A stretch of DNA of 64,000 nucleotides, from contig SCVN01000023.1 of NCBI GenBank assembly GCA_004296885.1, forward strand, positions 62,001-126,000, in the 5' to 3' direction. Both the position numbers and the translations under genes were made by a program. Under the pieces are notes generated by a model that was given only the letters and a program-made list of their open reading frames with translations, ran no database searches and was not told the origin of the DNA. Position 1 is the stretch's first letter; each line of letters begins with the position of its first letter. This DNA comes from Nitrospirota bacterium (GTDB lineage Bacteria > Nitrospirota > Nitrospiria > Nitrospirales > Nitrospiraceae). This document shows, one piece after another, positions 12,388-46,704 of this stretch.

Positions 12388-12411
12388 CCGGTCTGCTGCG
12401 ATTTGAACCCT

Positions 12412-13113: not shown

Positions 13114-13197
13114 CGGAATGTTGAAAAAGGCCTCCAGCTGCGTTCTCGGTCGCCCGTCTCCCTGCGGCCTTGCTGAAGGACCTTTTTGAACATTCCG
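13114..13197. repeat. Palindromic intergenic element, family R1 copy 1 (84 bp)
   Basis: The element is bounded by the inverted repeat CGGAATGTTgAAAAAGG / CCTTTTTgAACATTCCG (one mismatch) and contains CTGCGTTCTCG and CTGCGGCCTTG. The same inner words and arm sequence GAAAAAGtCCTCCgaC occur in the larger copy at 21811-21996. It sits between moaD-moaE and moaA and could act as a bidirectional terminator or RNA processing site, although no T-run follows. Confidence 0.6.
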
Positions 13198-13212
13198 TGA
13201 GAGCGTGAGCCC

Positions 13213-14271
13213 ATGAACGTGGAACGTTCCAAGCCAGCGACCGTCGGCGATACCTTCGGGCGGCCGCTCAAGAGCCTGCGTCTGTCGGTGACGGACCGGT
13301 GCAATCTCCGCTGCAAGTATTGCATGCCGGAGGAGGAATACGGTTGGCTGCCGCGGGAAACCCTCCTGAGCTTCGAGGAAATCTATGCCCTGACCGATCT
13401 GTTCACGGCATTGGGTGTGGACAAGGTGCGTTTGACCGGCGGCGAGCCGCTGTTACGCCGCGACCTGCCGACCTTGATCCGGATGTTGCGGGACAACCGC
13501 CGCATCAAGGAAATCGCGCTGACCACCAACGGCATTCTGCTGGCGGAACAAGCCGAAGCGCTCTATGACGCGGGCTTGCATCGGGTGACCGTGAGCCTGG
13601 ATACGTTGAAGCCGGACCGGTTCCGGTCGCTGACCCGACGCGATACGCATGCTCAGGTGCTGGAAGGCATCGAGGCCAGCCTGCGGGTCGGTTTTGCCGG
13701 CCTCAAGCTGGATACCGTCGCGATGAAGGGGTTCAACGACGACGAACTGGTGGATCTGATCGAGTACGGCAAGCGGGTCGGCGCCGAGGTGCGATTCATC
13801 GAGTATATGGATGTCGGCGGGGCCACGAATTGGTCGTTGGACAAGGTGCTTTCGCGCGACGCCATTCTCGAATCGCTGGGGCGGCAGTATGGGCCGGCCA
13901 AGCCGATCGTCGAGGCGAGTTCGGCGCCGGCGCAACGGTATTGCATCCCGGACGGAACGATCTTCGGGATCATTGCCTCGACGACCAGCCCGTTCTGCGC
14001 CACGTGCGACCGGAGCCGGCTCACCGCGGACGGTTTGTGGTACCTCTGCCTGTACGCCAAGGACGGGCTGGATTTGCGTGAGCCCTTGCGGACGGGCGTC
14101 TCGAGGGACGAACTCATGGCCCTGGTCCGGTCGCGATGGGAAGCACGCACGGACCGCGGCGCCGAAGAGCGCAAGGAGTTGGAACAGGTCGGGCTCCGCG
14201 AGTCGCAGCTGATCGCGATCCAGAAGCTCCGCGAGGATCCGCACCTCGAAATGCATGCCAGAGGGGGATGA
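13213..14271 (+). CDS. moaA: GTP 3',8-cyclase MoaA
   Basis: A 352-residue radical SAM enzyme that starts molybdenum cofactor synthesis. The N-terminal cluster motif is C30-X3-C34-X2-C37 (TDRCNLRCKYCMP). The C-terminal second cluster is in SPFCATCDRSRLTADGLWYLCL. TGGEPLLRRDL and the SAM-binding strand motifs are present. The usual C-terminal Gly-Gly is preserved (ARGG), which is needed to thread into the GTP site. It is separated from moaC/moaD-moaE by a palindromic repeat but is most likely co-regulated. MoeA, MogA and MobA are not in the window. Confidence 0.96.
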   Translation: MNVERSKPATVGDTFGRPLKSLRLSVTDRCNLRCKYCMPEEEYGWLPRETLLSFEEIYALTDLFTALGVDKVRLTGGEPLLRRDLPTLIRMLRDNRRIKEIALTTNGILLAEQAEALYDAGLHRVTVSLDTLKPDRFRSLTRRDTHAQVLEGIEASLRVGFAGLKLDTVAMKGFNDDELVDLIEYGKRVGAEVRFIEYMDVGGATNWSLDKVLSRDAILESLGRQYGPAKPIVEASSAPAQRYCIPDGTIFGIIASTTSPFCATCDRSRLTADGLWYLCLYAKDGLDLREPLRTGVSRDELMALVRSRWEARTDRGAEERKELEQVGLRESQLIAIQKLREDPHLEMHARGG

Positions 14272-31966: not shown

Positions 31967-32501
31967 GGGTAGCGTGGTTCACGATCGCCAAGATCCTCTT
32001 GCCTCTCGGTTTCTGTTTGAGCCGGCACAAAGGGGGGATCTCGATCGTCTCGTTGCGATCGAGCAGGCCTCGTTCACGGCTCCCTGGACCCGTAAGATGC
32101 TCGAAGCGGAGTTGCAGAATCCCTTCAGTCAGCTCCTCACCGCGCGACGGCGGTCGGACGGGCGGACCGGAGAGATCGTCGGCTACCTGTGCTTCTGGAT
32201 CGTGTTCGAGGAGTTGCGCCTCATGAATTTGGCCGTGGAAGCGGGGAGTCGGCGCCGGGGCATTGCCAGGGCACTGGTCCTCCACGCCCTCTCCCTGGCC
32301 CGTGACCGTGGTGCTACACGGGCGGTGCTCGAGGTGCGGGTCTCGAATCATGCGGCCAGGCGCCTGTACGAAGGCTTGGGATTCCGACAGGTGGCTGTTC
32401 GTTCCCGGTACTACGCGGATCCGATCGAAGATGCCGTGCTGATGCAACGAGAGTCGGTGGGCGTTCTAACCCTAAGCCAGGAGGTGGAGCATGCTGACTG
32501 A
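31953..32501 (+). CDS. rimI: Ribosomal protein S18 alanine N-acetyltransferase RimI (GNAT)
   Basis: A 182-residue GNAT acetyltransferase. Motifs: IEQASFTAPWTRKMLEAEL (RimI-type opening), LMNLAVEAGSRRRGIARALV (acetyl-CoA loop RRRGIA), LEVRVSNHAARRLYEGLGF and the late RSRYYADPIEDAVLM. It acetylates the N-terminal Ala of ribosomal protein S18 in E. coli; other targets are possible. ATG 31953 is chosen because it gives a typical length and overlaps tsaB by 14 bases. About 20 extra residues precede the usual GNAT start. Confidence 0.9.
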   Translation: MDSHRGSVVHDRQDPLASRFLFEPAQRGDLDRLVAIEQASFTAPWTRKMLEAELQNPFSQLLTARRRSDGRTGEIVGYLCFWIVFEELRLMNLAVEAGSRRRGIARALVLHALSLARDRGATRAVLEVRVSNHAARRLYEGLGFRQVAVRSRYYADPIEDAVLMQRESVGVLTLSQEVEHAD

Positions 32502-32715
32502 CGCACGTGTCTCGGAGCTGTTGAGAGGGTCCAGCACGGAATTCAAGGAACTCGAACAGATTCACCACCGGCTGGATGCGGAACTGGCGGAATTGCAAAA
32601 GCGACATGTGCTGACCCCCCAGGAGGAGCTGGTCAAGAAGCAGCTCCAAAAAGAGAAACTGGCCAAGAAGGACAGGATGGCGGAGTTGATTCGCCTGTAT
32701 CGGGAGAACGGGTAG
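32491..32715 (+). CDS. DUF465 (YdcH-like) small coiled-coil protein
   Basis: A 74-residue DUF465-family protein: a helical hairpin with FKELEQIHHRLDAELAELQK, a PQEELVKKQLQKEKLAKKDRMAEL turn and second helix. The family is small, cytoplasmic and of unknown function. AGGAGG lies seven bases before the ATG, which overlaps rimI by 11 bases. Confidence 0.85.
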   Translation: MLTDARVSELLRGSSTEFKELEQIHHRLDAELAELQKRHVLTPQEELVKKQLQKEKLAKKDRMAELIRLYRENG

Positions 32716-32756
32716 GGCGCCGCCGCCCGCTCACCGGCAATTCGCGGACCAACGTG

Positions 32757-33566
32757 ATGGAATTTCCAGGCGTCAAGTCCATGGCTACCGTGCTGCCGCC
32801 GCTGGCCAACCACCTGGCCAGCATCAAGCGGCGCCTGATCGTGATTGCGGGAGCGGTCCTGGCGTCTTTCATCCTGACCTTTGCTTATGCGGGGGAGTTG
32901 ATTCAATGGTTCAAGCGCCCCTTTTCGGACGAGCTGATTTTTTACAGCCCCACCGAAGCTCTGTTTGCCTCCGTGAAGGTATCGATCCTGGCCGGTATCG
33001 TGCTGAGTCTGCCAGTGATTCTCTATCAATGCTGGAAGTTCATCGAGCCGGCCCTGCTCCCGAAGGAGCAACGGTGGGCCATTCCCCTCTTCTGTCTGGC
33101 GGCAGGATTTTTCGCCCTGGGAATGGTTTTCTGCAATCTGGTCATCCTGCCGCTGGTCATCCAGTTCTTCGTCAGTTTCGGTATGGAGCGAGCGCTGGTT
33201 CCCCAATTGGCTGTCGGCACTTACGTCGATTTCAACGTCAAATTTCTGCTGATCTTTGGGTTCGCGTTCGAGCTACCGTTGGTGTTGACGCTGTTGTCGC
33301 GCATCGGCGTCGTGTCGCCGGCGTTGCTCAGCCATTACCGCAAACATGCCGTCATGACGGCCTTGATCCTGTCGGCAATCGTCACGCCCGACGCCACCCT
33401 GTTCACCATGCTCTTGATGGCGGTGCCCCTCATGGTCCTGTATGAGATCGGCATTCTTGGGACCCGCTTGTTTGGCCGGCGCCTTCCGCAAGGAGCGCCG
33501 GGGCAGGATCATGATGGGCCTGTTCCGGTGCTGCCGACGGGCACGGCCGGCCAGCGGGTGAAATGA
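32757..33566 (+). CDS. tatC: Sec-independent protein translocase subunit TatC
   Basis: A 269-residue TatC with six membrane helices. Signatures: HLASIKRRLIVIAGAV at the first helix, FYSPTEALFASVKVSILAGIVLSLPVILYQCWKFIEPALLPKEQR (split), GFAFELPLVLTLLSRIG and SAIVTPDATLFTMLLMAVPL. TatC recognises twin-arginine signals and carries folded proteins (often molybdoenzymes) across the inner membrane. TatA/TatB are not beside it. The C-terminal tail is longer than usual and polar. The gene ends in an ATGA overlap with the beta-propeller gene. Confidence 0.93.
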   Translation: MEFPGVKSMATVLPPLANHLASIKRRLIVIAGAVLASFILTFAYAGELIQWFKRPFSDELIFYSPTEALFASVKVSILAGIVLSLPVILYQCWKFIEPALLPKEQRWAIPLFCLAAGFFALGMVFCNLVILPLVIQFFVSFGMERALVPQLAVGTYVDFNVKFLLIFGFAFELPLVLTLLSRIGVVSPALLSHYRKHAVMTALILSAIVTPDATLFTMLLMAVPLMVLYEIGILGTRLFGRRLPQGAPGQDHDGPVPVLPTGTAGQRVK

Positions 33567-34642
33567 TGGCCCCGTTCAAAGCCGCCTTGGTACTTGTTGC
33601 TTGCGCCTTGTTCTTCGGGGCGGTCCAACCCTGTGCGGCCCAGCGGTCTCCGGGTCGCCATGACGCTCCGTTGGAGCAGGTGCCGGTCAGCCCGGCCCCC
33701 AGCATTCAAGCTTTGGCGGTGGGCAAGGATCAGGCCCTGTATGCCGGCTCGTTCGGTCAGGGGGTGTTTCGCAGTCATGACCAGGGGAAGAGCTGGGTGT
33801 CCGTCAATGAGGGACTGAGCGATGGGTTTATCCTGTCCTTGGCCATTGCGGAGGACGGAAGGGTCTATGTCGGCACCCTCAGAGGGGGCGTGTTCCGGAG
33901 CGACAACGAAGGCAAGAGCTGGCAGGCGTTGAACGAAGGGCTCAAGCGGCTGGAGGTCAAGGCCTTGCTGATCGATGGCCGCGCCCTCTATGCCGGGACC
34001 GGCGACGGCGTCTATCGCTTGGGAGAAGGAGATACCCACTGGGCGCGCGTAACCAAGGGGTTTGATGACCTGCTCATCCACACCCTGGTGCTGGGTATGG
34101 ATCGGACTCTCTTTGCCGGCACATCCGGGAAGGGGGTGCTCCGGTTGAAGTTCAACGGGGCGGAGTGGACTCGCCTTTCCAAGGGACTGAAGGACCATGA
34201 AGGGCTGGTCGAGAATTTCATTCGTGTGCTGGCGCTGGATCGGGAACAAGCGCTCTACGCGGGCACCTTCGACGGCGGGGTGTTTCGGAGCGCCGATGGA
34301 GGGGAAACCTGGATTCCGATCAGCCGATCCCTCCCCAATGATTCGATCCGGGGTATCGTAGTGAGCGAAAAAGGGCTGGTTGTCGCCACGGGACGGGGGA
34401 TTTTTAAGACGGTGAGCCAAGGACAGAAGTGGCTGCCCCTGAACAAGGGGCTGACGGAGCTCTCTGTCCAGGCCTTGGTTGCTCCCGGAGGCGGGGTGCT
34501 CTATGCGGGGACGAGTGCGGGGGTGTTTCGAAGCGACGACGATGGAGAGAGTTGGGCCGGGATCAGCGAGGGGCTGGGCGCGGCGCAGGAGTCGGCGGCC
34601 AAGTCGCCATGGGATCATTTGGGGAGGAGTGGAAAGCCATGA
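33563..34642 (+). CDS. Exported YCF48/BNR-type beta-propeller protein
   Basis: A 359-residue protein with a signal peptide (about residues 1-26) and about six repeats of the form LYAGxxxxGVFRSxDxGxxWxxxNxGL, seen from residue 50 to 345. This sialidase/BNR-type blade pattern matches photosystem II assembly factor YCF48-like and related seven-bladed propellers, which act as scaffolds in the periplasm rather than enzymes. It is translationally coupled to tatC (ATGA) and to the cyclophilin gene (ATGA), suggesting a shared envelope role. Its actual partner is unknown. Confidence 0.78.
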   Translation: MMAPFKAALVLVACALFFGAVQPCAAQRSPGRHDAPLEQVPVSPAPSIQALAVGKDQALYAGSFGQGVFRSHDQGKSWVSVNEGLSDGFILSLAIAEDGRVYVGTLRGGVFRSDNEGKSWQALNEGLKRLEVKALLIDGRALYAGTGDGVYRLGEGDTHWARVTKGFDDLLIHTLVLGMDRTLFAGTSGKGVLRLKFNGAEWTRLSKGLKDHEGLVENFIRVLALDREQALYAGTFDGGVFRSADGGETWIPISRSLPNDSIRGIVVSEKGLVVATGRGIFKTVSQGQKWLPLNKGLTELSVQALVAPGGGVLYAGTSAGVFRSDDDGESWAGISEGLGAAQESAAKSPWDHLGRSGKP

Positions 34643-35151
34643 GTGAGCCGAGCGAGAAGACGCGCGCGACGATTACGGTGACGATGAAAGGGGAACGGCT
34701 GGGTGAGATCGGGCTGAAGTTTTATCCGGACGTGGCGCCGGGCCATGTGAAGAACTTTATCAAGCTGGCCCAGGAGAAGTTTTACGACGGGACGACGTTT
34801 CACCGAGTGATCCCCGGATTTATGATCCAGGGGGGCGATCCCAACAGCAAGCAGCCGGACCGATCCATGCACGGGATGGGTGGGCCGGGCCACCGGGTGA
34901 AGGCGGAGTTCAACAGTAAACCGCACAAGCGGGGCGTGTTGTCTATGGCCAGGTCGAACGATCCGGACAGCGCCGGCTCGCAGTTTTTCATTTGCGTGGC
35001 CGATGCCAATTTTCTGGATTGGCAGTATACGGCGTTCGGCGAGGTCGTGAGCGGGATGGATCTGGCGGACAAGATTGTCGCCGTGAAGCGGGACGGGCGG
35101 GACAATCCGCTCGAACGGGTCGAGATGACCGTGACCGTGTCGGAAGCCTGA
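34639..35151 (+). CDS. Cyclophilin-type peptidyl-prolyl cis-trans isomerase
   Basis: A 170-residue cyclophilin without signal peptide. The active-site stretch FHRVIPGFMIQGGDP (Arg and Phe in the catalytic core), the SQFFICVADANFLDWQYTAFG region and the opening ITVTMKGERLGEIGLKFYPDVAPGHVKNF (split) are classic. It speeds Xaa-Pro isomerisation in protein folding. GGGGAGGAG precedes the start at 34639, which overlaps the propeller gene stop (ATGA). The radical SAM gene follows after 31 bases. Confidence 0.93.
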   Translation: MSEPSEKTRATITVTMKGERLGEIGLKFYPDVAPGHVKNFIKLAQEKFYDGTTFHRVIPGFMIQGGDPNSKQPDRSMHGMGGPGHRVKAEFNSKPHKRGVLSMARSNDPDSAGSQFFICVADANFLDWQYTAFGEVVSGMDLADKIVAVKRDGRDNPLERVEMTVTVSEA

Positions 35152-35182
35152 ACCGAGCTTGCTTGCCGGTAGGGAGAAGGCC

Positions 35183-37042
35183 GTGAGCGACGCGATCAAA
35201 GTCGCGCTTGTGAATATGCCGTTCGGCTATTCCAAGTATCCGTCCATCCAATTGGGGACGCTTTCGGCCTTGCTGAAGTCTCAGGGGATCGGCGTCGCCA
35301 GCCACTATCTCAACCTCCGGTTTGCCCACAAGATCGGCGTGCCCTTGTATGAGCTGCTGTGCGAGAAGCGTGCGCTGCTTGGGGAGTGGCTCTTTTCCCA
35401 CCTGCTGTTCCGCGAGAACCCCAAGCATGCCGACTATCCCCGCACCTTCAAGCCAGTCTTCGAAGAGCTGGCTCGTGAAAGCGGTCACCCCATCTCGTAT
35501 TTTGAAGAACTGGCCGCCAGGGGAGCCCCGCAGTTTCTCACCTGGGCCATGACGGCGATCGATTGGGGGCAGTATCAGGTCGTCGGGTTCACTTCCACCT
35601 TCGACCAGAACGTGGCCAGTCTGTCCTTGGCCAAGCTCATCAAGGATATCTATCCGGACGTGCGGATCGTCTTCGGAGGAGCCAATTTCGACGGAGACAT
35701 GGGTCTCGAGCACCTCCGCGCCTTCCCCTGGATCGATTATGTGGTGGTGGGGGAGGGGGAGGAGGTGTTTCCCTCCTTGGTGAGGCAGATTCTCGAGGGC
35801 AACGAGGCCAGCCCGCCGAAAGGGGTGGCCTATCGCCGGGAGGGGCGGATTTGCTTCGAGCCGAATTCGAAACTTTTTTCCGAATTTCAGCGGATGGGGC
35901 CTCCCGATTACGACGATTATTTTCGACAGGTGGCCGAAATCGGCGGGGAGCCGTCAAGGGGCTTGGATCGTGTCCTGCTCTATGAAGGGTCCCGGGGGTG
36001 CTGGTGGGGTGAGAAGCATCACTGCACGTTCTGCGGTTTGAACGCCCAGAGCATGAAATTCCGGGCGAAGACTCCGGAGCAAGTGGCGCGGGAACTGGAC
36101 TACCTGTCCAGCCGCTACGACTCTACCCGGTTTCGTCTGGTGGACAACATCATCGACATGAAATACGTGGACAAGTTGTTCGGCCAGTTCGCGGCGGACC
36201 ACTTGGATCTGGACGTTTTTATCGAAACCAAGAGCAATCTGCACAAGAAACAGATTCAGACCCTCGCTCAGGGCGGGGTGAAATGCATGCAACCGGGCAT
36301 CGAGAGTTTGAGTCAGGCCCAGCTTCACGAGATGGACAAGGGCGTGAGCCCCATGCAAAACGTCCAGTGCTTGAAGTGGAGCTTGTACTACCATGTCGAT
36401 ATCTCCTGGAACATCCTGTTGGGCTTTCCTCATGAAACGGATGAGGACTACCGGAAACAGATCGAGCTGATTCCCTCTCTATTGCATCTTCAGCCTCCCC
36501 AAGGAGTCGGCAAGTTTTGGCTCGAGCGGTTCAGCCCTTATTTCACCAGGCCGGAACAGTACGGCATTCGCATCACGGGACCAGGATTAGCCTACCACTA
36601 TGTGTATGATCCCAAGGTGGTGGATTTGCGGAAAATCGCCTACGACTTCGAGTACGAGATCGACCATAAAGTCTCCCCGGGGCGCTACGAAGAGTTGACC
36701 CAGTTGGTTCGTGACTGGCAGCAGAGACATGCCTCCGCAGACAAGCCGTTTCTCTACTATTCCAAGTCCCTGAGCTATGTGACCGTCTACGATGGGCGGT
36801 CGAGCGACAGGCCGACGCGGACGCGCTACGACTGGCCGGCGTCCTCCATTCTCGAGTTGTGCAACGAAGCGCCCAAGTCCCTGGAGCAGATCCGGGCAGG
36901 GTTGAAGGAAGCGGGACGGGGGCAAGTCCCCGATCCCGCCTCGCTGGAAGACCTGTTCGCGGCCTTGATCGCTCGGCGCATCCTCTACGTCGAGCGCGGC
37001 AAGTACTTTACCCTCGCCCTTCCCACCAACTCGACGTTCTAA
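35183..37042 (+). CDS. Orphan B12-type radical SAM protein of the RiPP-maturation family
   Basis: A 619-residue enzyme. The N-terminal part (about 1-270) is a cobalamin-binding-like Rossmann region (VALVNMPFGYSKYPSIQLGT, VVGFTSTFDQN, VFGGANFDG, VVVGEGEEVFP) without a clear DxHxxG. The radical SAM core begins at RGCWWGEKHHCTFCGLN: cysteines spaced C-X7-C-X2-C rather than C-X3-C-X2-C. This wording matches the family annotated as RiPP maturation radical SAM protein 1 (TIGR03975), whose members methylate or otherwise modify peptides. No precursor peptide gene is found next to it. The GTG at 35183 has AGGGAGAAGG upstream. Confidence 0.8.
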   Translation: MSDAIKVALVNMPFGYSKYPSIQLGTLSALLKSQGIGVASHYLNLRFAHKIGVPLYELLCEKRALLGEWLFSHLLFRENPKHADYPRTFKPVFEELARESGHPISYFEELAARGAPQFLTWAMTAIDWGQYQVVGFTSTFDQNVASLSLAKLIKDIYPDVRIVFGGANFDGDMGLEHLRAFPWIDYVVVGEGEEVFPSLVRQILEGNEASPPKGVAYRREGRICFEPNSKLFSEFQRMGPPDYDDYFRQVAEIGGEPSRGLDRVLLYEGSRGCWWGEKHHCTFCGLNAQSMKFRAKTPEQVARELDYLSSRYDSTRFRLVDNIIDMKYVDKLFGQFAADHLDLDVFIETKSNLHKKQIQTLAQGGVKCMQPGIESLSQAQLHEMDKGVSPMQNVQCLKWSLYYHVDISWNILLGFPHETDEDYRKQIELIPSLLHLQPPQGVGKFWLERFSPYFTRPEQYGIRITGPGLAYHYVYDPKVVDLRKIAYDFEYEIDHKVSPGRYEELTQLVRDWQQRHASADKPFLYYSKSLSYVTVYDGRSSDRPTRTRYDWPASSILELCNEAPKSLEQIRAGLKEAGRGQVPDPASLEDLFAALIARRILYVERGKYFTLALPTNSTF

Positions 37043-37125
37043 GTCACGCTGCGGTGTTTCCTTGCCTCGCGGCGCCCAGCGGCCGAGAGGGGTGTCTGGC
37101 GATCGGCTCCTGGATGTCATGATAG

Positions 37126-37155
37126 TTGACATAGTGACAGGTTATTTGCTATACC
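37126..37155 (+). promoter_or_regulatory. Candidate promoter and operator of the molybdate island regulator
   Basis: TTGACA (37126-37131) and TATACC (37150-37155) are 18 bases apart. The region also has half-site words GTCA and TGAC (GTCATGATAGTTGAC, then TAGTGACAG) and an imperfect dyad GGTTAT-TTGC-TATACC. The transcript would start only a base or two before the ATG at 37164, implying a leaderless or near-leaderless message. Confidence 0.45.
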
Positions 37156-37163
37156 GCGGTCCC

Positions 37164-38339
37164 ATGGGGAAAAACAGCCGCGCCGAACCGATCGCAAACA
37201 TCGAGAATCGCTTGCGCAGCTTGCGTATCGCCAAGGGGCTTTCGCAGGGAGCTCTGGCTGGCATGGCCGGAGTCACGCGCCAGGCCATCTATGCCATCGA
37301 AGGCAGCCAGTATTTGCCTACGACGGCGGTGGCGCTGCGCCTAGCCGGCGCCCTCGACTGTCGGGTCGAAGATCTCTTCAGTCTCATTGCCGGTGGAGAG
37401 ATCGTCGAAGGGGAGTTGGTCGGGTCTCTTCCGTCCGATCCGGTCCAGGCCCGCGTCAAAGTGGCGAGGGTTGGAAGTCGCCTATTGGTCAGGCCGGTTG
37501 CAGGGCTGGGGGAAGTGTTGAACTTTACCGTCCCGGCCGATGGGCTGCTCGTTGGGTCTCCCACCGCGTTACGCCGGACTGTGCGGGAAGGGGATCGCGT
37601 GCGGGTCCGACTCCTGAGAGATCGCCGGATCGTGGATGGAGAGATCGTCGTGGCTGGCTGCGATCCGGCCATCTTTCTCGCCGGTGAGTATCTCCGCCGC
37701 CGGCAGGACCAGACGACGGTCGTCGAATGGTCCATGGGGAGTTCTGCCGCCATGGAAGCGCTCAAACGGGGAGAGGTACATGTAGCCGGTCTCCACATTG
37801 TGGACCCGAAGTCCGGCGAATCGAACCTGCCCTACCTACGTCGTCACTGGAAGGGACCGGAGGTCCAAGTGGTGACCTTCGCCTCCTGGGAGCAGGGGCT
37901 GATGGTCAGGCACGGCAATCCGAAGGGCATCAAAGGGGTGGGGGATCTGACGCGCAAGGGCGTGGTCTTGATCAATCGCGAAGCAGGGGCCGGCGCGCGG
38001 CTGTTGCTGGACCAAAAGTTGGCAGCGGCCGGTATCAAAGTCGATCAGGTTAAGGGGTACCAGCGAAGCGCTAGCTCTCACCTGGAAGTCGCGCGTCTGA
38101 TCGCGGAAGGGCAGGCGGATGTCGGAATGGGGGTGCGGTCGGCCGCACGTTTATTGGGGTTGGAATTCCTGCCGTTGCAGGAGGAACGGTACGACTTAGT
38201 CATTCCTACGCGATATTTTGCCGACCATCCAGGCTTGGAACGATTGCTGGATATCTTGGTCAGCCGTCCGTTTCGCACCGAAGTCGAGGCCTTGGGCGGA
38301 TATGACACGCGGGAAACCGGAAAGGTTCAGACGTTGTGA
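37164..38339 (+). CDS. XRE-family regulator with C-terminal molybdate-binding-like domain (COG1910 type)
   Basis: A 391-residue regulator. Residues about 14-75 are an XRE helix-turn-helix (LRIAKGLSQGALAGMAGVTR, IYAIEGSQYLPTTAVALRLA). Residues about 190-380 are a periplasmic-binding-protein-like ligand domain (MGSSAAMEALKRGEVHVAGLH, INREAGAGARLLLDQKL, SSHLEVARLIAEGQADVGMG), as in COG1910 proteins that sense molybdate-like ligands in the cytoplasm. The middle segment (85-185) is unassigned. It stands first in a run of molybdate transport genes and is probably the local regulator. The start at 37164 is supported by the promoter just upstream. Confidence 0.8.
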   Translation: MGKNSRAEPIANIENRLRSLRIAKGLSQGALAGMAGVTRQAIYAIEGSQYLPTTAVALRLAGALDCRVEDLFSLIAGGEIVEGELVGSLPSDPVQARVKVARVGSRLLVRPVAGLGEVLNFTVPADGLLVGSPTALRRTVREGDRVRVRLLRDRRIVDGEIVVAGCDPAIFLAGEYLRRRQDQTTVVEWSMGSSAAMEALKRGEVHVAGLHIVDPKSGESNLPYLRRHWKGPEVQVVTFASWEQGLMVRHGNPKGIKGVGDLTRKGVVLINREAGAGARLLLDQKLAAAGIKVDQVKGYQRSASSHLEVARLIAEGQADVGMGVRSAARLLGLEFLPLQEERYDLVIPTRYFADHPGLERLLDILVSRPFRTEVEALGGYDTRETGKVQTL

Positions 38340-38376
38340 GGCGAACCGCATCATGGCGCATCGGCAGGGGAGAGTC

Positions 38377-39198
38377 ATGAGTCGATCGTGGATTGTTTGG
38401 CTGCCGGCTGCAAGCTTGTTCGTCGGCATGTCGCTGGGCACCGCATCCTTGGCCGAGCCGGTCGCCGAAACGCTGGTGATCGGCGCATCGCCCAGCATGA
38501 AAGGGCCGATTGAGGCGGTGGGGCGAGCGTTCGAGCGGGCCCATCCGAGCGTGAAGGTCAAAGTGTATTACGACTCTGGGCTGGACCTGAGGCAGATGAT
38601 TGCCACGGTGGGCAACGACCACAGGTTCTTTCTCGGGAGTGGTCCGATTGACGTGGTGGCGCCGGGCGGCGACGAGCTGCTCACGCGATTGGAGTCCAAG
38701 TATTACGTCCTGCCCGGCACGAAGCGCTCTTACGCGGCCGTTCCTCTTGTGCTGGTCGTTCCGGTCGCGCTCGTAGAGGCGCCGGCTTCGTTCGATGAAC
38801 TGGGCCCGGGGGGCAGATACCGGATTGCGATCTCGGATCCGACCTTGACGGAGTTGGGGCGGCAGACTGGGCAGCTCTTTGAGTCCCTCGGCATTGCCGA
38901 TGACGTGAAGGCGCGGCTGGATGTCGCCTCGGATGCGCGGGGCGTGTTGGATCATCTGCTGCTGGGACAGGCGGATGTCGGCATTCTGTTCGGTCCGGAT
39001 GCCGTGTTGGAGCAGGAACGGGTTCGCATCGTGGCGACGGCGGACAGGCCGACCGTCCAGCCGACCGTTCATTCGATGGCGATGCATCGTTACTGTCGAG
39101 ACCGGACGTTGTGCCTGGAATTCCTTGCCTTTGCCGAGTCCTCGGATGCGCAAGCCATTGTGCGGTCTTTGGGCTATACGACGCCCGGTGAGCCGTAA
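38377..39198 (+). CDS. ModA-like periplasmic substrate-binding protein, divergent
   Basis: A 273-residue exported binding protein. A signal peptide ends near SLGTASLAEP. The fold begins LVIGASPSMKGPIEAVGRAF and includes VKVKVYYDSGLDLRQMIA, GPIDVVAPGGDELLTRLE and LLLGQADVGILFGPDAV, the layout of ModA/WtpA-type proteins. It is more divergent from ModA than the proteins at 41911 and 45862, and the canonical Ser in the first loop is shifted (GASPS). It lies 37 bases after the regulator gene. GGGGAGAG precedes the start at 38377. The ligand is not evident. Confidence 0.72.
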   Translation: MSRSWIVWLPAASLFVGMSLGTASLAEPVAETLVIGASPSMKGPIEAVGRAFERAHPSVKVKVYYDSGLDLRQMIATVGNDHRFFLGSGPIDVVAPGGDELLTRLESKYYVLPGTKRSYAAVPLVLVVPVALVEAPASFDELGPGGRYRIAISDPTLTELGRQTGQLFESLGIADDVKARLDVASDARGVLDHLLLGQADVGILFGPDAVLEQERVRIVATADRPTVQPTVHSMAMHRYCRDRTLCLEFLAFAESSDAQAIVRSLGYTTPGEP

Positions 39199-39209
39199 AA
39201 AATTTTACG
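39194..39209. promoter_or_regulatory. CGTAAAA-AA-TTTTACG palindrome in an AT-rich spacer (candidate operator)
   Basis: The 16-base inverted repeat (7-base arms, 2-base centre) includes the stop codon of the binding-protein gene and lies in an AT-rich 101-base spacer before the lipoprotein gene. A TATACT (39221-39226) follows. The loop is too short for a terminator hairpin, so a protein site is more plausible. Confidence 0.35.
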
Positions 39210-39299
39210 TTTCATGTCAGTATACTTTTAAAATTAACAGTAAACTTGTCTTTTATGGAGCGATGTCCGTGAAGTGTCTGGTCGGAGAAGGAGATTGAG

Positions 39300-39965
39300 A
39301 TGACACGAAAAAGGATCGATCGGTGGTCCAACGCAGTGATCGGAGCGGTCTTGGCCGGCTGGTTGTTGTCACTGTTCGGCTGTGCGCGGCTGCCATACAC
39401 AGTCCAGACTGTCCATGAAGACCAGCGGGCGGTCGTCACGATCCAGCGGGAGGTCAAGCCGGCTGGGTACAGCCATCCGGTTCAGATCAGCGCCCAGGAT
39501 CTGGCCGTCATGCTCGGTTCGTTCTCCTTTCGGGAGAAACAGAAATTGCCGCTTCGGTGGTTTGCCGAAGAAACGCCGCCGAAAAGGATCTTCCGGCAGG
39601 ACGAGCTTGAGGCGCTGGTTCTGTTCCTTGCCGAGGCCTTGCAGAAGGCGGGGCCGGAGGAACGGGTCCATTTTACGGTACTGGCTCCCGGCATGAACCC
39701 CGCCCTCGAGCGAGACACCACGGACGGCTGGATCGCCGTCCGCGGTCCCTACTTCCATCTCACCCTCGAGCATTACCACGCGCAATTTTCAATCCGGAAG
39801 GAGGAGATGTGGGATCTCCGCTATCCCGCGATCCCGCCTGAGCCCGGCACCTTCCTGCTCTATTTTGAGCCGAATCGCTTTTGGAGCACCGATCCGACGG
39901 TGAACGAGCGGGGCCTGTTGTACCGCGACTTTCTCAAGTCCGCGATCCTGCCCGGCAGCAAGTAG
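39300..39965 (+). CDS. Lipoprotein of the island, paralogue A
   Basis: A 221-residue lipoprotein (lipobox SLFGC, then ARLPYTVQ). The mature part has SHPVQISAQDLAVMLGSFSF, KRIFRQDELEALVLFLAEALQKA, RVHFTVLAPG and GPYFHLTLEHYHAQ. I recognise no named domain, but the minus-strand lipoprotein at 45118-45849 is a clear paralogue. It shares the SHPxxxxxxxLxxLL, FRxDExxxL and RVxFxL positions. It sits directly upstream of the porin gene, so it may be a periplasmic or outer-membrane partner of that channel. GGAGAAGGAG precedes the ATG. Confidence 0.75.
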   Translation: MTRKRIDRWSNAVIGAVLAGWLLSLFGCARLPYTVQTVHEDQRAVVTIQREVKPAGYSHPVQISAQDLAVMLGSFSFREKQKLPLRWFAEETPPKRIFRQDELEALVLFLAEALQKAGPEERVHFTVLAPGMNPALERDTTDGWIAVRGPYFHLTLEHYHAQFSIRKEEMWDLRYPAIPPEPGTFLLYFEPNRFWSTDPTVNERGLLYRDFLKSAILPGSK

Positions 39966-40018
39966 CCCATATCGGTACGGACGAGACCGTTCATTTGCTC
40001 TTATTGATGGAGGTGGCC

Positions 40019-41794
40019 ATGAGCCGATGGGCTCGGTTGATCGATACAGTGAAAGCCAAAACCTTCTTGATAAACATGCTGGCTCTGGCCGGCATGGCGA
40101 TCGGCTTCTTGGCCGGTCCCCTGGATGCCGTGGCCGTGGATTCGGGCCAGCTGATCGAAAAAGACGGCCAGTATGTCTTTGTGGAAAGCCAGGACCCGGC
40201 GTTGCGGCTCCTCATGGATCGGGCGTTTGAGAAGGGCCTCATTACCAAAGAGGAGTATGCGCAGGCCCTCAAGGAATCGGAAACCCATCGGTACCAGACC
40301 CAGGTTCCGTTCAAGCTCTGGTATGATCGGGGCTTCAATATCTCCACGAACGACAATGCCTTCTTCCTCAAGATTCGCGGCCGGGCCATGTTCCGGGAAA
40401 CGACGCGATTTCGAAACGATGCCTGGCGCAACCCGGGCGATGCCAAGAATTATCCGGAACTCCTTGGCGTGTTCGGGGATTATCGCGCGAACCGCTCGAC
40501 GAACGACGCCACCTATTTCAATCTTCGGCGCGCACGCCTGCTGTTTTCGGGGCACGTCTTCAATCCGGATTTTAAATATTTCGTGCAAATGGGATTCGAA
40601 ACTGCGGAGAACGCCCAGACCCCAGGCGCGGCCAATCTCCTCGACTTCTACGTCACCAGCACCCATTTCCCGTTGTTCAACGTCCAGGTCGGGCAGTATA
40701 AGGTCTTTTTCAACCGCTCACAAATTAACAATACCGCCTCCATGCAGTTCGCCGAGCGGGCGCCGATTCAGGACGCCTTTACGGCCAACGGACTGAATCG
40801 CCGCGACATCGGGATCACGATCATGAACGACGACGAACTGTACCCGGTGAACTATTACCTCGGCGTTTTCAACGGCAGCGGTCCCCTCTTCACCCGCTAC
40901 GGGGCCTATGACAGCGAAGAGCCGACTCCCAACTGTCCGGGCGGGCAAACCGGCGGTAACCCGGTCCCTTCTCCAGCAAGCTGCCCGACCAATCAACGAA
41001 ACTTGAACGCGAACTTCAGGGGAAGCTCGATCAGTCAACTCATGTATACGGCCCGAGTGATGTGGAATGTCATGGGACGGCCAGGCTACGGCGAGGGCGA
41101 CCTGGCCTATTCGGAAACGCCTCAATGGGCGATCGGAGGGAACATCGCCTACAACCCGCAGATCAATACCAGCAGCGACAATGCCTTCATCGGTATCGAC
41201 CTGGCGAATCTCAATTGGCGCCGGTCATTGGCCACATTCGGGAACGGCCGACAACTCGGATGGGGCATCGTGGACTATACGACCTGGGGACTGGACACCA
41301 TTTTCAAGTACCGAGGCTTCTCATTCCAGGGGGAGTACTACTTCAAAAACATCACCCGCCATGAGAAAGGGTTGCCCTGCATGCAGCGCGTGTCGGCCGC
41401 CGCGGCTTGCTCGGTGTTTGCTCCGTCGCTGCTGGGGAATGCGAGCGGGTTTTACGTCCAGTCCGGCTACTACCTCATTCCCCGCTATCTCGAATTCGCC
41501 GCTCGCTATTCCTATTGGGATCCGGATTCCGGCGTCGGCGGCGATCTGATCAAGCAAGTGGATGCGTCCATCAATTTCTTCCCCTTCGGGGTCTACGACT
41601 ATCAAGTCATGCTCACCTATTCGAATCAGGCGATGGGCACCGGCGGCTATGCGATCGGCCGCAGCGCGCCCTTGCCCGCCGTCGGGCCATTGAGCAGCGC
41701 GTCATCCTATCCTTCGGGCACGGTGCCCTTGGATGCGAAGGGGGGGGCGTTGATCGACAATACGATCCGTCTGCAGTTGCAAATCTTCTTCTAA
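40019..41794 (+). CDS. Outer membrane porin (OprP/OprO-like), paralogue A
   Basis: A 591-residue protein with a signal peptide (about 1-40), a short N-terminal segment (SGQLIEKDGQYVFVESQDPA; GLITKEEYAQALKES) and a long beta-barrel region ending in Phe (RLQLQIFF), the usual outer-membrane sorting end. The barrel strands FNLRRARLLFSGHVFNPDFKY and FNVQVGQYKVFFNRSQINN are typical of phosphate-selective porin O/P family proteins. The minus-strand gene at 46705-48345 is its paralogue. TGGAGG lies before the ATG at 40019. It is between a lipoprotein and modA. Confidence 0.85.
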   Translation: MSRWARLIDTVKAKTFLINMLALAGMAIGFLAGPLDAVAVDSGQLIEKDGQYVFVESQDPALRLLMDRAFEKGLITKEEYAQALKESETHRYQTQVPFKLWYDRGFNISTNDNAFFLKIRGRAMFRETTRFRNDAWRNPGDAKNYPELLGVFGDYRANRSTNDATYFNLRRARLLFSGHVFNPDFKYFVQMGFETAENAQTPGAANLLDFYVTSTHFPLFNVQVGQYKVFFNRSQINNTASMQFAERAPIQDAFTANGLNRRDIGITIMNDDELYPVNYYLGVFNGSGPLFTRYGAYDSEEPTPNCPGGQTGGNPVPSPASCPTNQRNLNANFRGSSISQLMYTARVMWNVMGRPGYGEGDLAYSETPQWAIGGNIAYNPQINTSSDNAFIGIDLANLNWRRSLATFGNGRQLGWGIVDYTTWGLDTIFKYRGFSFQGEYYFKNITRHEKGLPCMQRVSAAAACSVFAPSLLGNASGFYVQSGYYLIPRYLEFAARYSYWDPDSGVGGDLIKQVDASINFFPFGVYDYQVMLTYSNQAMGTGGYAIGRSAPLPAVGPLSSASSYPSGTVPLDAKGGALIDNTIRLQLQIFF

Positions 41795-41803
41795 GGCGGT
41801 GTC

Positions 41804-41832
41804 TTGCGCGGCGGGCGGCCTGCCAGTATAGT
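41804..41832 (+). promoter_or_regulatory. Candidate sigma-70 promoter for modA
   Basis: TTGCGC (41804-41809) and TATAGT (41827-41832) are 17 bases apart in the 116-base spacer upstream of modA. It gives a leader of about 72 bases. Confidence 0.45.
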
Positions 41833-41910
41833 GGCGGTGGTTCGGATCGGTACACGAAGAGACATCGGTCGAATGCCGTGGCGTCAGGAGAGTCTATACG
41901 TGGAGGAGCG

Positions 41911-42717
41911 ATGATGATCGTTGGGAAAATGGCGCCTATTCTGCTTGCAACTTGGGTTGTCGTGGCGGTCTGTATGGTGGTTTTTGGAATGGGAGGACTT
42001 GCGTCGGCCTCAGGCGAGGAGTTGACCATCGCCGCTGCCTCCGACTTGAATTTCGCGTTCAAGAAGATCGTGTCGGACTTTGAGAAAGCGACGGGTACTC
42101 ATGTCAGGCTTTCCCTGGGGTCATCGGGCAATTTTTTCTCTCAGATTCAGCACGGGGCTCCGTACGATCTCTATTTCTCGGCGGATATCCGCTACCCCCA
42201 GAAGCTGGAACAGACCGGCCATGCGGTGCCCGGCTCCCTCTACAAGTATGCCGTCGGGCGGATTGTGGTCTGGACGCCCAAATCGTCTCCGGTGCCTGTG
42301 TCGCAAGTGGGCATGGACGCGTTGCTGGACCCCTCAATCAAAAAGATCGCCATTGCCAACCCGAAACATGCCCCCTATGGGCGGGCCGCCATCGCGGCGA
42401 TGGAGCATTTCAAGATTTACGACCGGGTCAAGGAGAAGCTTGTGCTGGGTGAGAACATCTCCCAGGCCGCCCAGTTTGTCGAATCCGGCGCGGCCGACAT
42501 CGGAATCGTCGCCTTGTCGCTGGCGTCGGCACCGGCCATGAAAGAAGCCGGCCAGTATTGGGAAATTCCTGCGGCATCCCATCCGGCGCTCGAGCAGGGA
42601 GCGGTCATCGTGGCGGGTACGAAACAACAACAGGCGGCCAAGGCCTTTTTGGATTTTCTGAAGGGGCCGGAGGGACGGCAGGTCATGGCCGGCTACGGAT
42701 TCGTATCACCCGAATAA
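41911..42717 (+). CDS. modA: Molybdate ABC transporter, periplasmic binding protein ModA
   Basis: A 268-residue exported protein. The signal peptide runs to about GLASASG. The mature fold has LTIAAASDLNFAF (first oxyanion Ser), LSLGSSGNFFSQI (second Ser), IANPKHAPYGRAA and GAADIGIVALSLA, all at positions used by E. coli ModA to hold molybdate or tungstate. It delivers the anion to ModBC encoded 400 bases downstream. GGAGGAG is four and seven bases before two adjacent ATGs, so 41914 may be the true start. Confidence 0.9.
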   Translation: MMIVGKMAPILLATWVVVAVCMVVFGMGGLASASGEELTIAAASDLNFAFKKIVSDFEKATGTHVRLSLGSSGNFFSQIQHGAPYDLYFSADIRYPQKLEQTGHAVPGSLYKYAVGRIVVWTPKSSPVPVSQVGMDALLDPSIKKIAIANPKHAPYGRAAIAAMEHFKIYDRVKEKLVLGENISQAAQFVESGAADIGIVALSLASAPAMKEAGQYWEIPAASHPALEQGAVIVAGTKQQQAAKAFLDFLKGPEGRQVMAGYGFVSPE

Positions 42718-42734
42718 CCCCGGACGGGATTCCT

Positions 42735-43073
42735 GTGCGCCTACCAGAACTTTCCGTTGGTCTTCGCCGATGGTTGAGTGTAGCCGGGCTGGCGCTGCTG
42801 GCTACTCTGGTCGGATGCGCCGAGGGGGCCCGGTTTGTGCGCGTGGATGAGCAGGGGGGCCTCGTGATCTACCCGCTCAAAAAGGATCGGGAGAGCATCT
42901 ACGCCTCGCCGTTCCGCGCAGAAGCCTTGAAAATGATTGAAGCGCATTGCCACGGAGCCTACCTGATCACGAAAGACGGGGAGACGAAGCCGGAGATGCG
43001 GGCGACCGGCCTCGACGCGGATGAACCATTGACCGCGAAGCGTTTTTGGGGACTTCAATTTCGGTGCAAATGA
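42735..43073 (+). CDS. Small lipoprotein between modA and modB
   Basis: A 112-residue protein read from GTG 42735. The signal peptide ends in LVGC, and Cys is followed by AEGARFVRVDEQGGLVIYPLK. The mature 80 residues have one more Cys pair (AHCHGAY and FRCK). No domain recognised. It sits between modA and modB, so it is probably co-transcribed and may be an accessory of uptake. The ribosome binding site is weak. Confidence 0.6.
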   Translation: MRLPELSVGLRRWLSVAGLALLATLVGCAEGARFVRVDEQGGLVIYPLKKDRESIYASPFRAEALKMIEAHCHGAYLITKDGETKPEMRATGLDADEPLTAKRFWGLQFRCK

Positions 43074-43122
43074 CGGACATCGTCACGTCTTTGTTGCATG
43101 AGGTGAGGAGGAGCGGGCCGTC

Positions 43123-43797
43123 GTGAACTGGATGGCGATCCTGGTCACCCTGAAGCTGGCCACACTCACCTCGTTGATTTTGGTCCTGATCGGTCTGCCG
43201 TTGGCCTACTGGTTGAGCTTTTCCCGTTGGCGTTGGAAATTCCTGGCCGAGTCTGTGGTGGCGCTTCCATTGGTGCTGCCGCCGACCGTCCTGGGGTTCT
43301 ACATTCTCGTTGCAATCGGGCCGCACAGCCCGCTCGGGCAGTTCTATGCGACCCTTGTCGGACATCCCTTGCCCTTCACCTTCGAGGGACTGTTGTTCGC
43401 CTCCATTCTGTACAGCCTCCCGTTCGCCGTGCAGCCCTTTGCCGCCGCGTTCGAGCAAGTGGATCGTCGCCTCATTGAAGCCTCCTGGACGTTGGGCGTG
43501 TCCAAATTCCGCACCTTCTTCAAGCTGATTGTTCCGATGTCCGCAGCGGGGATAGTCACCGGCGCCGTGTTGAGTTTTGCCCATACCCTGGGCGAGTTCG
43601 GAGTGGTGTTGATGGTGGGCGGCAATATTGAAGGCGTGACGCGGACGGTTTCGATTGATATCTACGACGAGGTCCAGGCGCTTAACTATGCAGGTGCCGC
43701 CAAGACCGCTCTGTTTCTGTTCGTGGTGTCGTATATCGTCTTGCTGGGCGTCTATGCGATGAACCGGAAGGTCTGGGCCCTATGGCCGCAGAAGTGA
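43123..43797 (+). CDS. modB: Molybdate ABC transporter permease ModB
   Basis: A 224-residue permease with five or six helices and the EAA loop EASWTLGVSKFRTFFKLIVP, which couples to the ATPase. SLPFAVQPFAAAFEQVDRRLIEASW and GEFGVVLMVGGNIEG are typical of ModB. GTG 43123 has GGTGAGGAGGAG upstream. The gene overlaps modC by 16 bases. Confidence 0.93.
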   Translation: MNWMAILVTLKLATLTSLILVLIGLPLAYWLSFSRWRWKFLAESVVALPLVLPPTVLGFYILVAIGPHSPLGQFYATLVGHPLPFTFEGLLFASILYSLPFAVQPFAAAFEQVDRRLIEASWTLGVSKFRTFFKLIVPMSAAGIVTGAVLSFAHTLGEFGVVLMVGGNIEGVTRTVSIDIYDEVQALNYAGAAKTALFLFVVSYIVLLGVYAMNRKVWALWPQK

Positions 43798-44879
43798 TCA
43801 TTGACATCGTCAAGGCCTTCCCGGGTCGCTTGACGATCAGTACTTCATTTCGCATGGCGTATGAACCTCCCTCGGTCCTGGTACTCTTCGGGCCATCCGG
43901 TTCTGGAAAGACGACGATTCTACGCTGCCTCGCCGGACTCGAATGGCCGGACCAGGGGAGCATCCGATTCGGCTCGGAAACCTGGGTGGATACAGGCGCC
44001 AGTATCCGACGCCATCCCCAACAGCGCCAGATCGGGTACATGTCTCAGGACTATGCCTTGTTCCCGACCTATTCAGTCTTGGGCAATATTGCGTATGGTC
44101 TTGGAGATATGCCGGGAACCGAACGGCAGCAGCGTATCGAGGAGGTAACGGCCTTGCTCCAGTTGCAGGGGACGGAGGGTCTTCGCCCCACCCAACTCTC
44201 CGGAGGCCAGCAGCAACGAGTCGCCCTTGCCAGGGTCCTTGCGCGACGTCCGCGCCTATTATTGCTCGACGAGCCGCTGTCCGCATTGGACATTCCGACT
44301 CGATCCAGATTGCGCGGCGAGTTGCGATCGTTGTTGAGGCAGTTGGCCATTCCCACCATCGTGGTGACGCATGATTGGGAGGAAGCTCTGGCGTTGGGCG
44401 ATCGGATGGTGGTCCTTCGAGAGGGGCGGGTGCTGCAGGAAGGAGCGCCGCAACAGGTGTTCAATCGTCCCGGAGACGCGGAGGTGGCCAAGATCGTCGG
44501 CATGGAAACGGTTCTGCCGGGTCGGGTCATCGAGATGACTCAGGGGTTAGTGACGGTTGAAGTAGAAAAACGGAAACTTGTGGCGCTTGGCACAGGGGAG
44601 GTGGGCCCGGAAGTCTTTGTGTGCATTCGCGCCGAGGATATTTTATTGGAATCGCCCCCTGCAGGCGCAACCAGTGCAAGGAATCAGCTGGCTGGAACCG
44701 TGCGCGGGGTCACTCCGATGGGGGCGCTCGTGCGCGTCGAGATCGACTGCGGTTTTGTGCTGTCCGCCGTCGTGACGCGCTCCGCCCTGGAGGAGCTGCG
44801 CCTCTCGCCCGGGGCGTCCGTCGTGGCCGCGATCAAAGCCGGTTCCGTGCACCTGGTGCCGCGACGTAACAATGCCTGA
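43782..44879 (+). CDS. modC: Molybdate ABC transporter ATPase ModC
   Basis: A 365-residue ATPase with Walker A GPSGSGKTT, Q-loop YMSQDYALFPTY, signature LSGGQQQRVALARVLA, Walker B LLLLDEPLSALD and the H-loop VVTHDWEEALAL. The C-terminal 120 residues form a TOBE/mop-like region (LAGTVRGVTPMGALVRVEIDCG), which in ModC proteins can bind molybdate. Together with ModA and ModB it imports molybdate (possibly tungstate). It overlaps modB by 16 bases. The opening is somewhat shorter than E. coli ModC's N-terminus. Confidence 0.92.
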   Translation: MAAEVIIDIVKAFPGRLTISTSFRMAYEPPSVLVLFGPSGSGKTTILRCLAGLEWPDQGSIRFGSETWVDTGASIRRHPQQRQIGYMSQDYALFPTYSVLGNIAYGLGDMPGTERQQRIEEVTALLQLQGTEGLRPTQLSGGQQQRVALARVLARRPRLLLLDEPLSALDIPTRSRLRGELRSLLRQLAIPTIVVTHDWEEALALGDRMVVLREGRVLQEGAPQQVFNRPGDAEVAKIVGMETVLPGRVIEMTQGLVTVEVEKRKLVALGTGEVGPEVFVCIRAEDILLESPPAGATSARNQLAGTVRGVTPMGALVRVEIDCGFVLSAVVTRSALEELRLSPGASVVAAIKAGSVHLVPRRNNA

Positions 44880-44934
44880 CCGGTGACAGATATCCGCGCA
44901 GTTCCTTTCGGCGTAGGCCACGATCAGCGACTCT

Positions 44935-45054
44935 TCAGAGTGGCCGGTCTCCGCGGTGGCGACCACTCCAATGCCTGATATGTGTCAGGCCCTCCCGTGT
45001 GGCCTGCTTGCTCAGCGATTCCATAGAGTCGCCGACGACGATCAAGAGTGCCAT
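44935..45054 (-). pseudogene. Possible decayed DUF2325-like fragment
   Basis: Reading the minus strand from 45054 gives LLIVVGDSMESLSKQATREG then HIRHWSGRHRGDRPL before a stop at 44935. Another frame right beside it continues ESLIVAYAERNCADIC. Joined, they resemble the short DUF2325 proteins (VVGD.., HWSGR.., then a hydrophobic strand), so a frameshift may have killed a small gene. The evidence is a by-eye resemblance only. Confidence 0.25.
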
Positions 45055-45117
45055 GATAGGCCATCCAATCCTGCTTCCGCCCATTGCTCGCAACCGTGCC
45101 TGTGCATCAGCGGCGGC

Positions 45118-45849
45118 CTACGGTTTTAGGCTTCCGGGCTTCGGCTCTTCGCCAGGAACCGGCTCGGCGATCGACAGGGCCTTGCGAAACCTGATCTCCA
45201 GCTGCTCCTGCTGCTCCGGCGAGAACCAGGGACTGGCCGAGCCGACCCGCTCAAGATATTCTTCCGGCTCGAAGGTGACATTAAACGGACCGGGGACTTC
45301 CGAGATGTTCGGCAGTTGGCGATCGTACTTGCTGATGTCCGGCTGCGGGCCATGCTTGTCGTGCACTTCAGTCAACACCAGGTAGAGAAGCGGCTCTTGG
45401 ACATACACCCAGCCCGTCGTGGTTTCTTCATCTCCAGTCTCTGTCGGATTGCTGAGGTGGAAATAGACGCGATCGGTCCGAGCTGCCTGGGCCAGGCCCC
45501 TGGAGAGGGCCGGCGACAGGACGGAAATTTCATCTTCCCGGAATGCGCGTTTCTTGTCCGCCTTGCCCATGAGGAGTTCATGGATGATATTGCGTCGTTC
45601 CCAGACGCGGACACCTCGCAAGAGTGCCGAGATTTCGTGCGGCGTCAGGTTAATCGGATGGGAATTCAGCGATGCGCCGGCCGGACTTCGCTCGGTTCGA
45701 ACCACATCCCGACCGCCTTCCAGGACGGCCGCGGTCTGTACGGGGGCCTGACGTGCGCAACCGCTCGCAATCGCTCCGTCCATCGCCAAGAGCACGAAGG
45801 CCAGGCTCCACAGGACCTTGCGCGTCAATCTGCTGTTGATCTGTTCCAT
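45118..45849 (-). CDS. Lipoprotein of the island, paralogue B
   Basis: A 243-residue lipoprotein (signal peptide ending IASGC, then ARQAPVQ). It is the paralogue of the lipoprotein at 39300: SHPINLTPHEISALLRGVRV, RAFREDEISVLSPALSRGLAQA, RVYFHLSNPTE and EPLLYLVLTEVHD align with the same positions. It is the last gene of the minus-strand operon, 12 bases after the ModA-like gene. AAAGGAG precedes the start. Its function is unknown. Confidence 0.78.
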   Translation of the reverse strand: MEQINSRLTRKVLWSLAFVLLAMDGAIASGCARQAPVQTAAVLEGGRDVVRTERSPAGASLNSHPINLTPHEISALLRGVRVWERRNIIHELLMGKADKKRAFREDEISVLSPALSRGLAQAARTDRVYFHLSNPTETGDEETTTGWVYVQEPLLYLVLTEVHDKHGPQPDISKYDRQLPNISEVPGPFNVTFEPEEYLERVGSASPWFSPEQQEQLEIRFRKALSIAEPVPGEEPKPGSLKP

Positions 45850-45861
45850 GTGCGTCTCCTT

Positions 45862-46668
45862 TTACCGCTGTGCGGGGCTCGTGTTGGAGGTGGCCTGGTC
45901 GAATCCATGTTCCCGCAAGACGGCCTGCGCCTGAGCCGAGACCATGAACGCGCCGAATTCACGCGCCAGCGTCAGGTCCCTAACGGTCCACACGGACGCC
46001 AGACCGTAGATGACCGGCGGATGCGAGTCGGCCAGGGTTTCCGCAATAATGCGGACCTTGCGATTCTGAGCCGCATCGGTCCGGTAGACGAGGCCGACGT
46101 CGGCCTCGCCCTTGGCTACCAAGTCGAGCACTGCGCCGGAATGTTCCCCATACACGTAACGAGACCGAAGATCCTGGTCAAAATTCGAATTCTTGAAGAA
46201 TTTCGCCGAGAATTTTCCGACCGACGACGTTTTGGGATCGCCGATCGCGATCCGCCTGACTGCAGGTTTGCGGAGATCCTGGATCGACCTGATTTGGGTC
46301 GGAGCGCTGGTGCCGGTGATCAGAACCAGTGCCGTGCTCCCGTAGATCTGCGGAGATCCGACGATGAGCCCCTTGTCCTGAAGGGACTCAAGTTCTTCGA
46401 GCGAGGAGGGGAGATAGACATCCACCGGCGCTCCCTGTTCGATTTGCTGGCGTAGGGTCTGTGACGGGCCGTACACGATCCGAACGTTGACTTCCTTATG
46501 CTGGGCTTCGAACAGCGGAAGAACCGCTTTCAAGGGTTCATGCAGGCTGTTGGCCGCCGCGATGGTGAGCGACGCCGTGGGTTCGGCCTGCGCGGTCGGC
46601 GCGTCCCAGGCTATGGCCAGGACGACGATGAGCAAGAGCGCCCCTGATCGGACCAATTGTCGTATCAT
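45862..46668 (-). CDS. ModA-like periplasmic binding protein, paralogue B
   Basis: A 268-residue exported protein, the same length as ModA at 41911. A signal peptide ends near PTAQAEP. Core: LTIAAANSLHEPLKAV, VRIVYGPSQTLRQQI, VDVYLPSSLEELES, IGDPKTSSVGKF and KGEADVGLVYRTDAAQ, which is the ModA layout including the late Tyr that caps the anion in E. coli. The first-loop Ser is in AANS rather than AASD. It could bind molybdate, tungstate or another oxyanion. CGGAGG lies seven bases before the ATG at 46668. Confidence 0.8.
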   Translation of the reverse strand: MIRQLVRSGALLLIVVLAIAWDAPTAQAEPTASLTIAAANSLHEPLKAVLPLFEAQHKEVNVRIVYGPSQTLRQQIEQGAPVDVYLPSSLEELESLQDKGLIVGSPQIYGSTALVLITGTSAPTQIRSIQDLRKPAVRRIAIGDPKTSSVGKFSAKFFKNSNFDQDLRSRYVYGEHSGAVLDLVAKGEADVGLVYRTDAAQNRKVRIIAETLADSHPPVIYGLASVWTVRDLTLAREFGAFMVSAQAQAVLREHGFDQATSNTSPAQR

Positions 46669-46704
46669 GTGATGCCTCCGTTGCACGTGGCTCGCGCGCG
46701 TTCG

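Follow-up and report, generated by a model that had tools for sequence, protein, structure and literature searches.

Among the genes of the window, as we call the whole 64,000-nt stretch of Nitrospirota DNA analysed here, is one encoding a B12-dependent radical SAM enzyme (rSAM) that belongs to a RiPP maturation family and is carried as a single-copy, near-core gene in the order Nitrospirales. On balance, we think it probable that rSAM is an orphan C-methyltransferase of the B12-radical SAM class and PoyC/TIGR03975 type, core to its lineage, which modifies a conserved polypeptide in trans as a housekeeping enzyme. Most likely it acts on a protein conserved across the Nitrospirales, and the best reading of the gene is a known chemistry placed in a new biological setting. 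If a core protein is modified, organisms performing the second step of nitrification would carry a conserved carbon methylation, and rSAM would be a case of a natural-product enzyme turned housekeeping. The use of TIGR03975 as a RiPP marker in genome mining would lead to a RiPP locus being called in nearly every Nitrospira, and one study has set TIGR03975-type hits in Nitrospira aside as likely false positives (PMC9426513). The literature on TIGR03975, on radical SAM RiPPs of Nitrospira and on nitrite oxidoreductase (NXR) with radical SAM enzymes yielded nothing on this gene.

Family, domains and predicted fold

The preliminary description likened the product to RiPP maturation radical SAM protein 1, a resemblance borne out by the NCBIfam model TIGR03975 (RiPP maturation radical SAM C-methyltransferase, rSAM_ocin_1), which rSAM matches at full length (profile positions 1-606) with 613.5 bits (E 3.9e-184) against a cut-off of 281.85 bits. 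The open frame is free of stops, a ribosome-binding-type AGGGAG lies just 5' of the GTG at 35183, and the conserved N-terminus agrees with this start. The B12-binding domain is N-terminal to the Radical_SAM domain, as expected for TIGR03975 (Table 1), and the CX7CX2C motif reads GCWWGEKHHCTFCGLN, with C273, C281 and C284 invariant across 69 aligned Nitrospirales orthologues. This motif had been highlighted in the preliminary description; its presence stands, but it is not unusual, being an already described PoyC-type hallmark documented for PoyB/PoyC-type enzymes (PMC5682303, PMC11285071). While rSAM shares with those enzymes the family match, both domains and the motif, it differs from them in lying outside any RiPP cluster, with no precursor, peptidase or exporter, and in being single-copy, near-core and slowly evolving within one order.

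Table 1. Features of the rSAM gene and its surroundings (window positions)
Feature	Position	Strand	Remarks
DUF465 small protein	32491..32715	+	PF04325; sole short gene nearby, not a RiPP leader
tatC	32754..33566	+	TIGR00945, PF00902
Secreted BNR/propeller-like protein	33563..34642	+	4-nt overlaps with neighbours on either side
Cyclophilin-type peptidyl-prolyl isomerase	34639..35151	+	Pfam PF00160; directly upstream of rSAM
B12-dependent radical SAM C-methyltransferase family protein (TIGR03975)	35183..37042	+	619 aa, GTG start
B12-binding domain	35567..35779	+	Residues 129-199; Pfam PF02310, 34.2 bits (cut-off 32.1)
Radical SAM domain	35990..36469	+	Residues 270-429; Pfam PF04055, 45 bits (cut-off 29.5)
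CX7CX2C cluster motif	35999..36034	+	C273-C284, read from sequence
C-terminal winged-helix domain, RRE/PqqD-like	36731..37039	+	Residues 517-619; predicted structure, weak Pfam PqqD
HTH + PBP-like (MoeA C-terminal-type) regulator	37168..38339	+	PF12727, PF01381; start approximate
ModA-like substrate-binding protein	38326..39198	+	PF13531; TIGR01256 58.9 bits (cut-off 62.5); start approximate

An AlphaFold2 model of rSAM (pLDDT 82, pTM 0.82, with low confidence in the cluster loop, residues 267-292) was matched structurally by OxsB (Z 19.1), TokK (16.8), TsrM (16.7) and MgmA (15.8), and phmmer matches include TokK and MgmA (9ccb). TsrM, TokK and OxsB have the same overall fold at low identity (14-16%); their substrates are tryptophan, a carbapenem intermediate or a nucleotide. 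MgmA, the glutamine C-methylase of methyl-coenzyme M reductase (MCR; PDB 9ccb, PMC11796369), shares the B12-radical SAM fold and shows that a housekeeping C-methylase can have a core enzyme of energy metabolism as its target, although it belongs to another subfamily (rSAM scores 43 bits with TIGR04014, the MCR glutamine C-methylase model, under the cut-off of 360) and to another organism, and the target of rSAM is only a candidate.

Modelled alone, the C-terminal domain has a b-b-b-a-a-a-b-b topology (pLDDT 87.6) similar to that of the winged-helix RiPP recognition elements (RREs) TbiB1 and PqqD. Its top two structural matches are to TbiB1, an RRE with bound leader peptide (Z 8.4 and 8.3), just above the background of Z 7-8 reached by unrelated winged helices; Foldseek alone returned no significant match for the domain. 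In sequence, the Pfam PqqD match is weak and below cut-off (E 0.0033 for N. moscoviensis, E 0.14 for the window copy), and leader binding is a prediction. Among divergent RiPP-type copies the PqqD/RRE hallmark appeared only in one (L185), as a weak match (E 0.21), and we make no family-wide claim for it. As modelled, the RRE-like domain suggests a polypeptide substrate for rSAM.

In the mechanism we envisage, cleavage of SAM on the [4Fe-4S] cluster held by C273, C281 and C284 would yield a 5'-deoxyadenosyl radical, which would abstract a hydrogen from an sp3 carbon in the side chain of an amino acid. The resulting carbon radical would take up a methyl group donated by methylcobalamin in the N-terminal domain, and a second SAM would re-methylate the cobalamin. 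Part of the substrate polypeptide would be bound by the winged helix at the C-terminus.

Distribution and genomic neighbourhoods

Orthologues of rSAM occur in 87 of 295 genomes of the phylum, all in three families (f1, f2 and f3) of the Nitrospirales, and are 62-92% identical, while the other matches in the phylum reach only 26-41%. TIGR03975 is above cut-off in 144 of the 175 genomes of the Nitrospiraceae. In a tree, the Nitrospirales sequences fall on one branch, and the divergent outgroups form long, uncertain branches. Loss of the gene is not a comammox trait: an AMO profile identified many AMO-positive genomes with rSAM and AMO-negative ones without it. One record titled Nitrospinota (L056, JACZVJ010000066.1) has an rSAM and PCD neighbourhood that groups inside Nitrospirales family f3; it is possibly a misnamed or contaminated MAG.

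The source assembly, from the Nitrospiraceae, measures 3.26 Mb and is estimated to be 100% complete. In the window, rSAM is the last gene of a tightly packed string (DUF465, tatC, propeller, cyclophilin), its GTG lying 31 nt from the cyclophilin stop. Pfam and TIGR matches confirm the cyclophilin, propeller protein and tatC recognised upstream in the preliminary description; the molybdate regulator placed downstream is likewise found, as an HTH/PBP-like regulator followed by ModA-type proteins. The molybdate-type cluster at window 38326-48345 includes three ModA-like proteins and ModB/ModC-like frames (43123-44879, named by eye), along with two similar outer-membrane porin-like proteins.

Most relatives have another arrangement. 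A pterin-4a-carbinolamine dehydratase (PCD) gene lies directly upstream of rSAM, on the same strand, in 70 of 80 named relatives (median gap 46 nt), often preceded by a ParB-like gene (named by eye), and convergent downstream are an AhpD-like gene, a gene for a 94-aa protein and an inositol-monophosphatase-like gene. The earlier label of orphan consequently holds in the RiPP sense only, since most relatives carry PCD as a conserved partner. Because the source genome keeps its ParB-PCD locus on another contig (L176), with rSAM missing there, the position of rSAM in the window, at the tatC/cyclophilin site, most likely reflects a lineage-specific relocation within the window's clade. A tatC or molybdate context is also present at L033, L035, L040, L041, L190, L204, L205 and L207, and a third setting, the nxr cluster, is seen in two genera.

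The linkage to PCD raises the possibility, which we consider unlikely though worth entertaining, that rSAM methylates a small molecule, such as a pterin or a molybdenum-cofactor (Moco) intermediate. No phenylalanine hydroxylase was found in the sampled genomes, so PCD has another role there, which fits the role in Moco metabolism assigned to the PCD family (PMC3223725), and in the window's clade molybdate genes adjoin rSAM. The two genes are, however, separable: they are unlinked in the source genome, and PCD persists in G116 and G130 in the absence of rSAM, so that PCD is not an obligate partner. Furthermore, the closest characterised relatives of rSAM act on peptides, and its C-terminal domain looks peptide-binding.

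Nor is the 94-aa protein favoured as a dedicated substrate: its gene, which converges on rSAM in 61 loci, persists where rSAM has been lost (G116, G104 and G130). In these three genomes, SUMF1-like frames (formylglycine-generating-enzyme-type, by eye) occupy the lost-rSAM site (L180, L193 and L181, respectively). The AhpD-like protein (L081 11924-12256 and equivalents) belongs to the arsenosugar-associated peroxidase family TIGR04169 (195 bits), and its gene is convergent with rSAM in 52 of the 70 PCD-linked loci.

Search for a RiPP precursor, peptidase or exporter

The apparent lack of an adjacent precursor, protease or ABC exporter was upheld once the neighbours had been identified (32491-39962, with further frames named by eye), the short gene nearby encoding the DUF465 protein. 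No short precursor gene recurs beside rSAM in the loci of 80 relatives, so the window copy is not one from which a precursor kept by all its relatives was lost. Matches to NHLP, Nif11 and Os1348-type leaders were absent from the source genome, and none of these clans was found in the remaining 18 genomes sampled from its family, a search that leader types of unrecognised kind would escape. The preliminary description had left two options, a precursor elsewhere or a non-classical substrate; the 80 loci and the genome-wide leader searches favour the latter, without proving it.

RiPP-like clusters are occupied only by the divergent relatives of rSAM (25-41% identity). The G108 copy (L177) has two such neighbours close by, a maturation protease of the PatA/PatG type (723.6 bits, cut-off 421) and a repetitive frame rich in Gly and Pro. 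The G117 copy (L178) comes after a frame of 73 aa that weakly matches the NHLP clan, and the G295 copy (L185) is next to a subtilisin-like protease. The same method thus detects RiPP neighbours where they are present. The first of these loci (G108:C13:4501-24500, 7076-14099), from an AMO-positive Nitrospira, comprises a 184-aa Gly/Pro-rich frame, rSAM_ocin_1 and the PatA/PatG-type cyanobactin maturation protease; a further candidate RiPP locus (L187, G323:C67, 2130-6776) pairs a short frame resembling a precursor with an rSAM_ocin_1 gene that is interrupted by an in-frame stop.

That rSAM is a RiPP maturase proper, acting in trans on a precursor from another part of the genome whose leader goes unrecognised, and yielding a conserved Nitrospirales peptide, would accord with its TIGR03975 membership, its RRE-like domain and the presence elsewhere in the source genome of two long frames with a C39-peptidase domain, but we rate it as rather improbable given the leader searches and the 80 loci described above, and C39-type genes occur in only 14 of 31 sampled genomes, whereas rSAM is near-core. 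The nearer C39 domain (G000:C23:60526-60879) lies about 1.1 kb before the window start, some 36 kb from rSAM, within a 738-aa open frame that is probably an ABC exporter. It is very improbable that rSAM is a relic with no current function, for although the gene has been lost in several lineages and a remnant survives beside PCD in G104 (L193 9261-9434), its dN/dS of 0.07-0.10 indicates strongly purifying selection comparable with that on tatC, its motif is intact in all 69 aligned sequences, and it has been kept through several relocations.

Nitrite oxidoreductase as a candidate target

If rSAM is, as we prefer, a housekeeping enzyme acting on a conserved polypeptide, the leading specific candidate for its target, one we put forward tentatively, is NXR or one of the factors for its Mo- and Tat-dependent maturation. 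We recognised NxrA and NxrB from their matches to 7b04, the structure of NXR from Kuenenia (E 0 and 9.5e-176). In two genera only (G173 and G002), rSAM lies inside the nxr cluster, in the order nxrA-nxrB-rSAM-p109-p128 on one strand. NxrA or NxrB is present in 78 of the 87 rSAM carriers: 67 have NxrB at an identity of at least 91%, and 11 more have NxrA, among them G175, the only f2 carrier. Since NxrA begins with a twin-arginine-like SRRQFLK, we infer that the tatC, molybdate and nxr contexts of rSAM would all fit NXR maturation.

Several observations temper this proposal. NXR is present and an rSAM orthologue absent in six complete or near-complete genomes (G062, G107, G108, G116, G329 and G362), so rSAM is not essential for NXR. 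Both nxr-linked genera have a 15-bp terminator-like hairpin after nxrB and ahead of rSAM, leaving co-transcription of the two unproven. Co-distribution of rSAM and NXR within one order may reflect shared ancestry only, and, with roughly five relocations of the gene in the order (an estimate, with no computed probability), one landing in a cluster as notable as nxr is not overwhelming evidence. A residue-level comparison of NxrA and NxrB disclosed no position that changes consistently with rSAM loss; the search for a target residue vanishing in rSAM-less lineages gave only a conservative I-to-V change (alignment column 871) common to two losses.

It is conceivable, if doubtful, that a RiPP-type B12-radical SAM enzyme was co-opted in nitrite-oxidising Nitrospirales to C-methylate NXR or one of its Mo/Tat maturation factors. 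Such a modification would be analogous to the C-methylation of MCR by B12-radical SAM enzymes in methanogens and, if true, would give those carbon methylations a bacterial counterpart.

The small protein p109 was also considered as a universal substrate of rSAM and rejected, as it was not found near nxrB either in the examined stretch of the source genome or in the f3 genome G182. Neither p109 nor p128 matched any NCBIfam model. They are two small conserved proteins encoded after nxrB in many Nitrospira (L225 3075-3853 and equivalents), and in many Nitrospira other than the two nxr-linked genera they follow nxrB directly, with rSAM not between.
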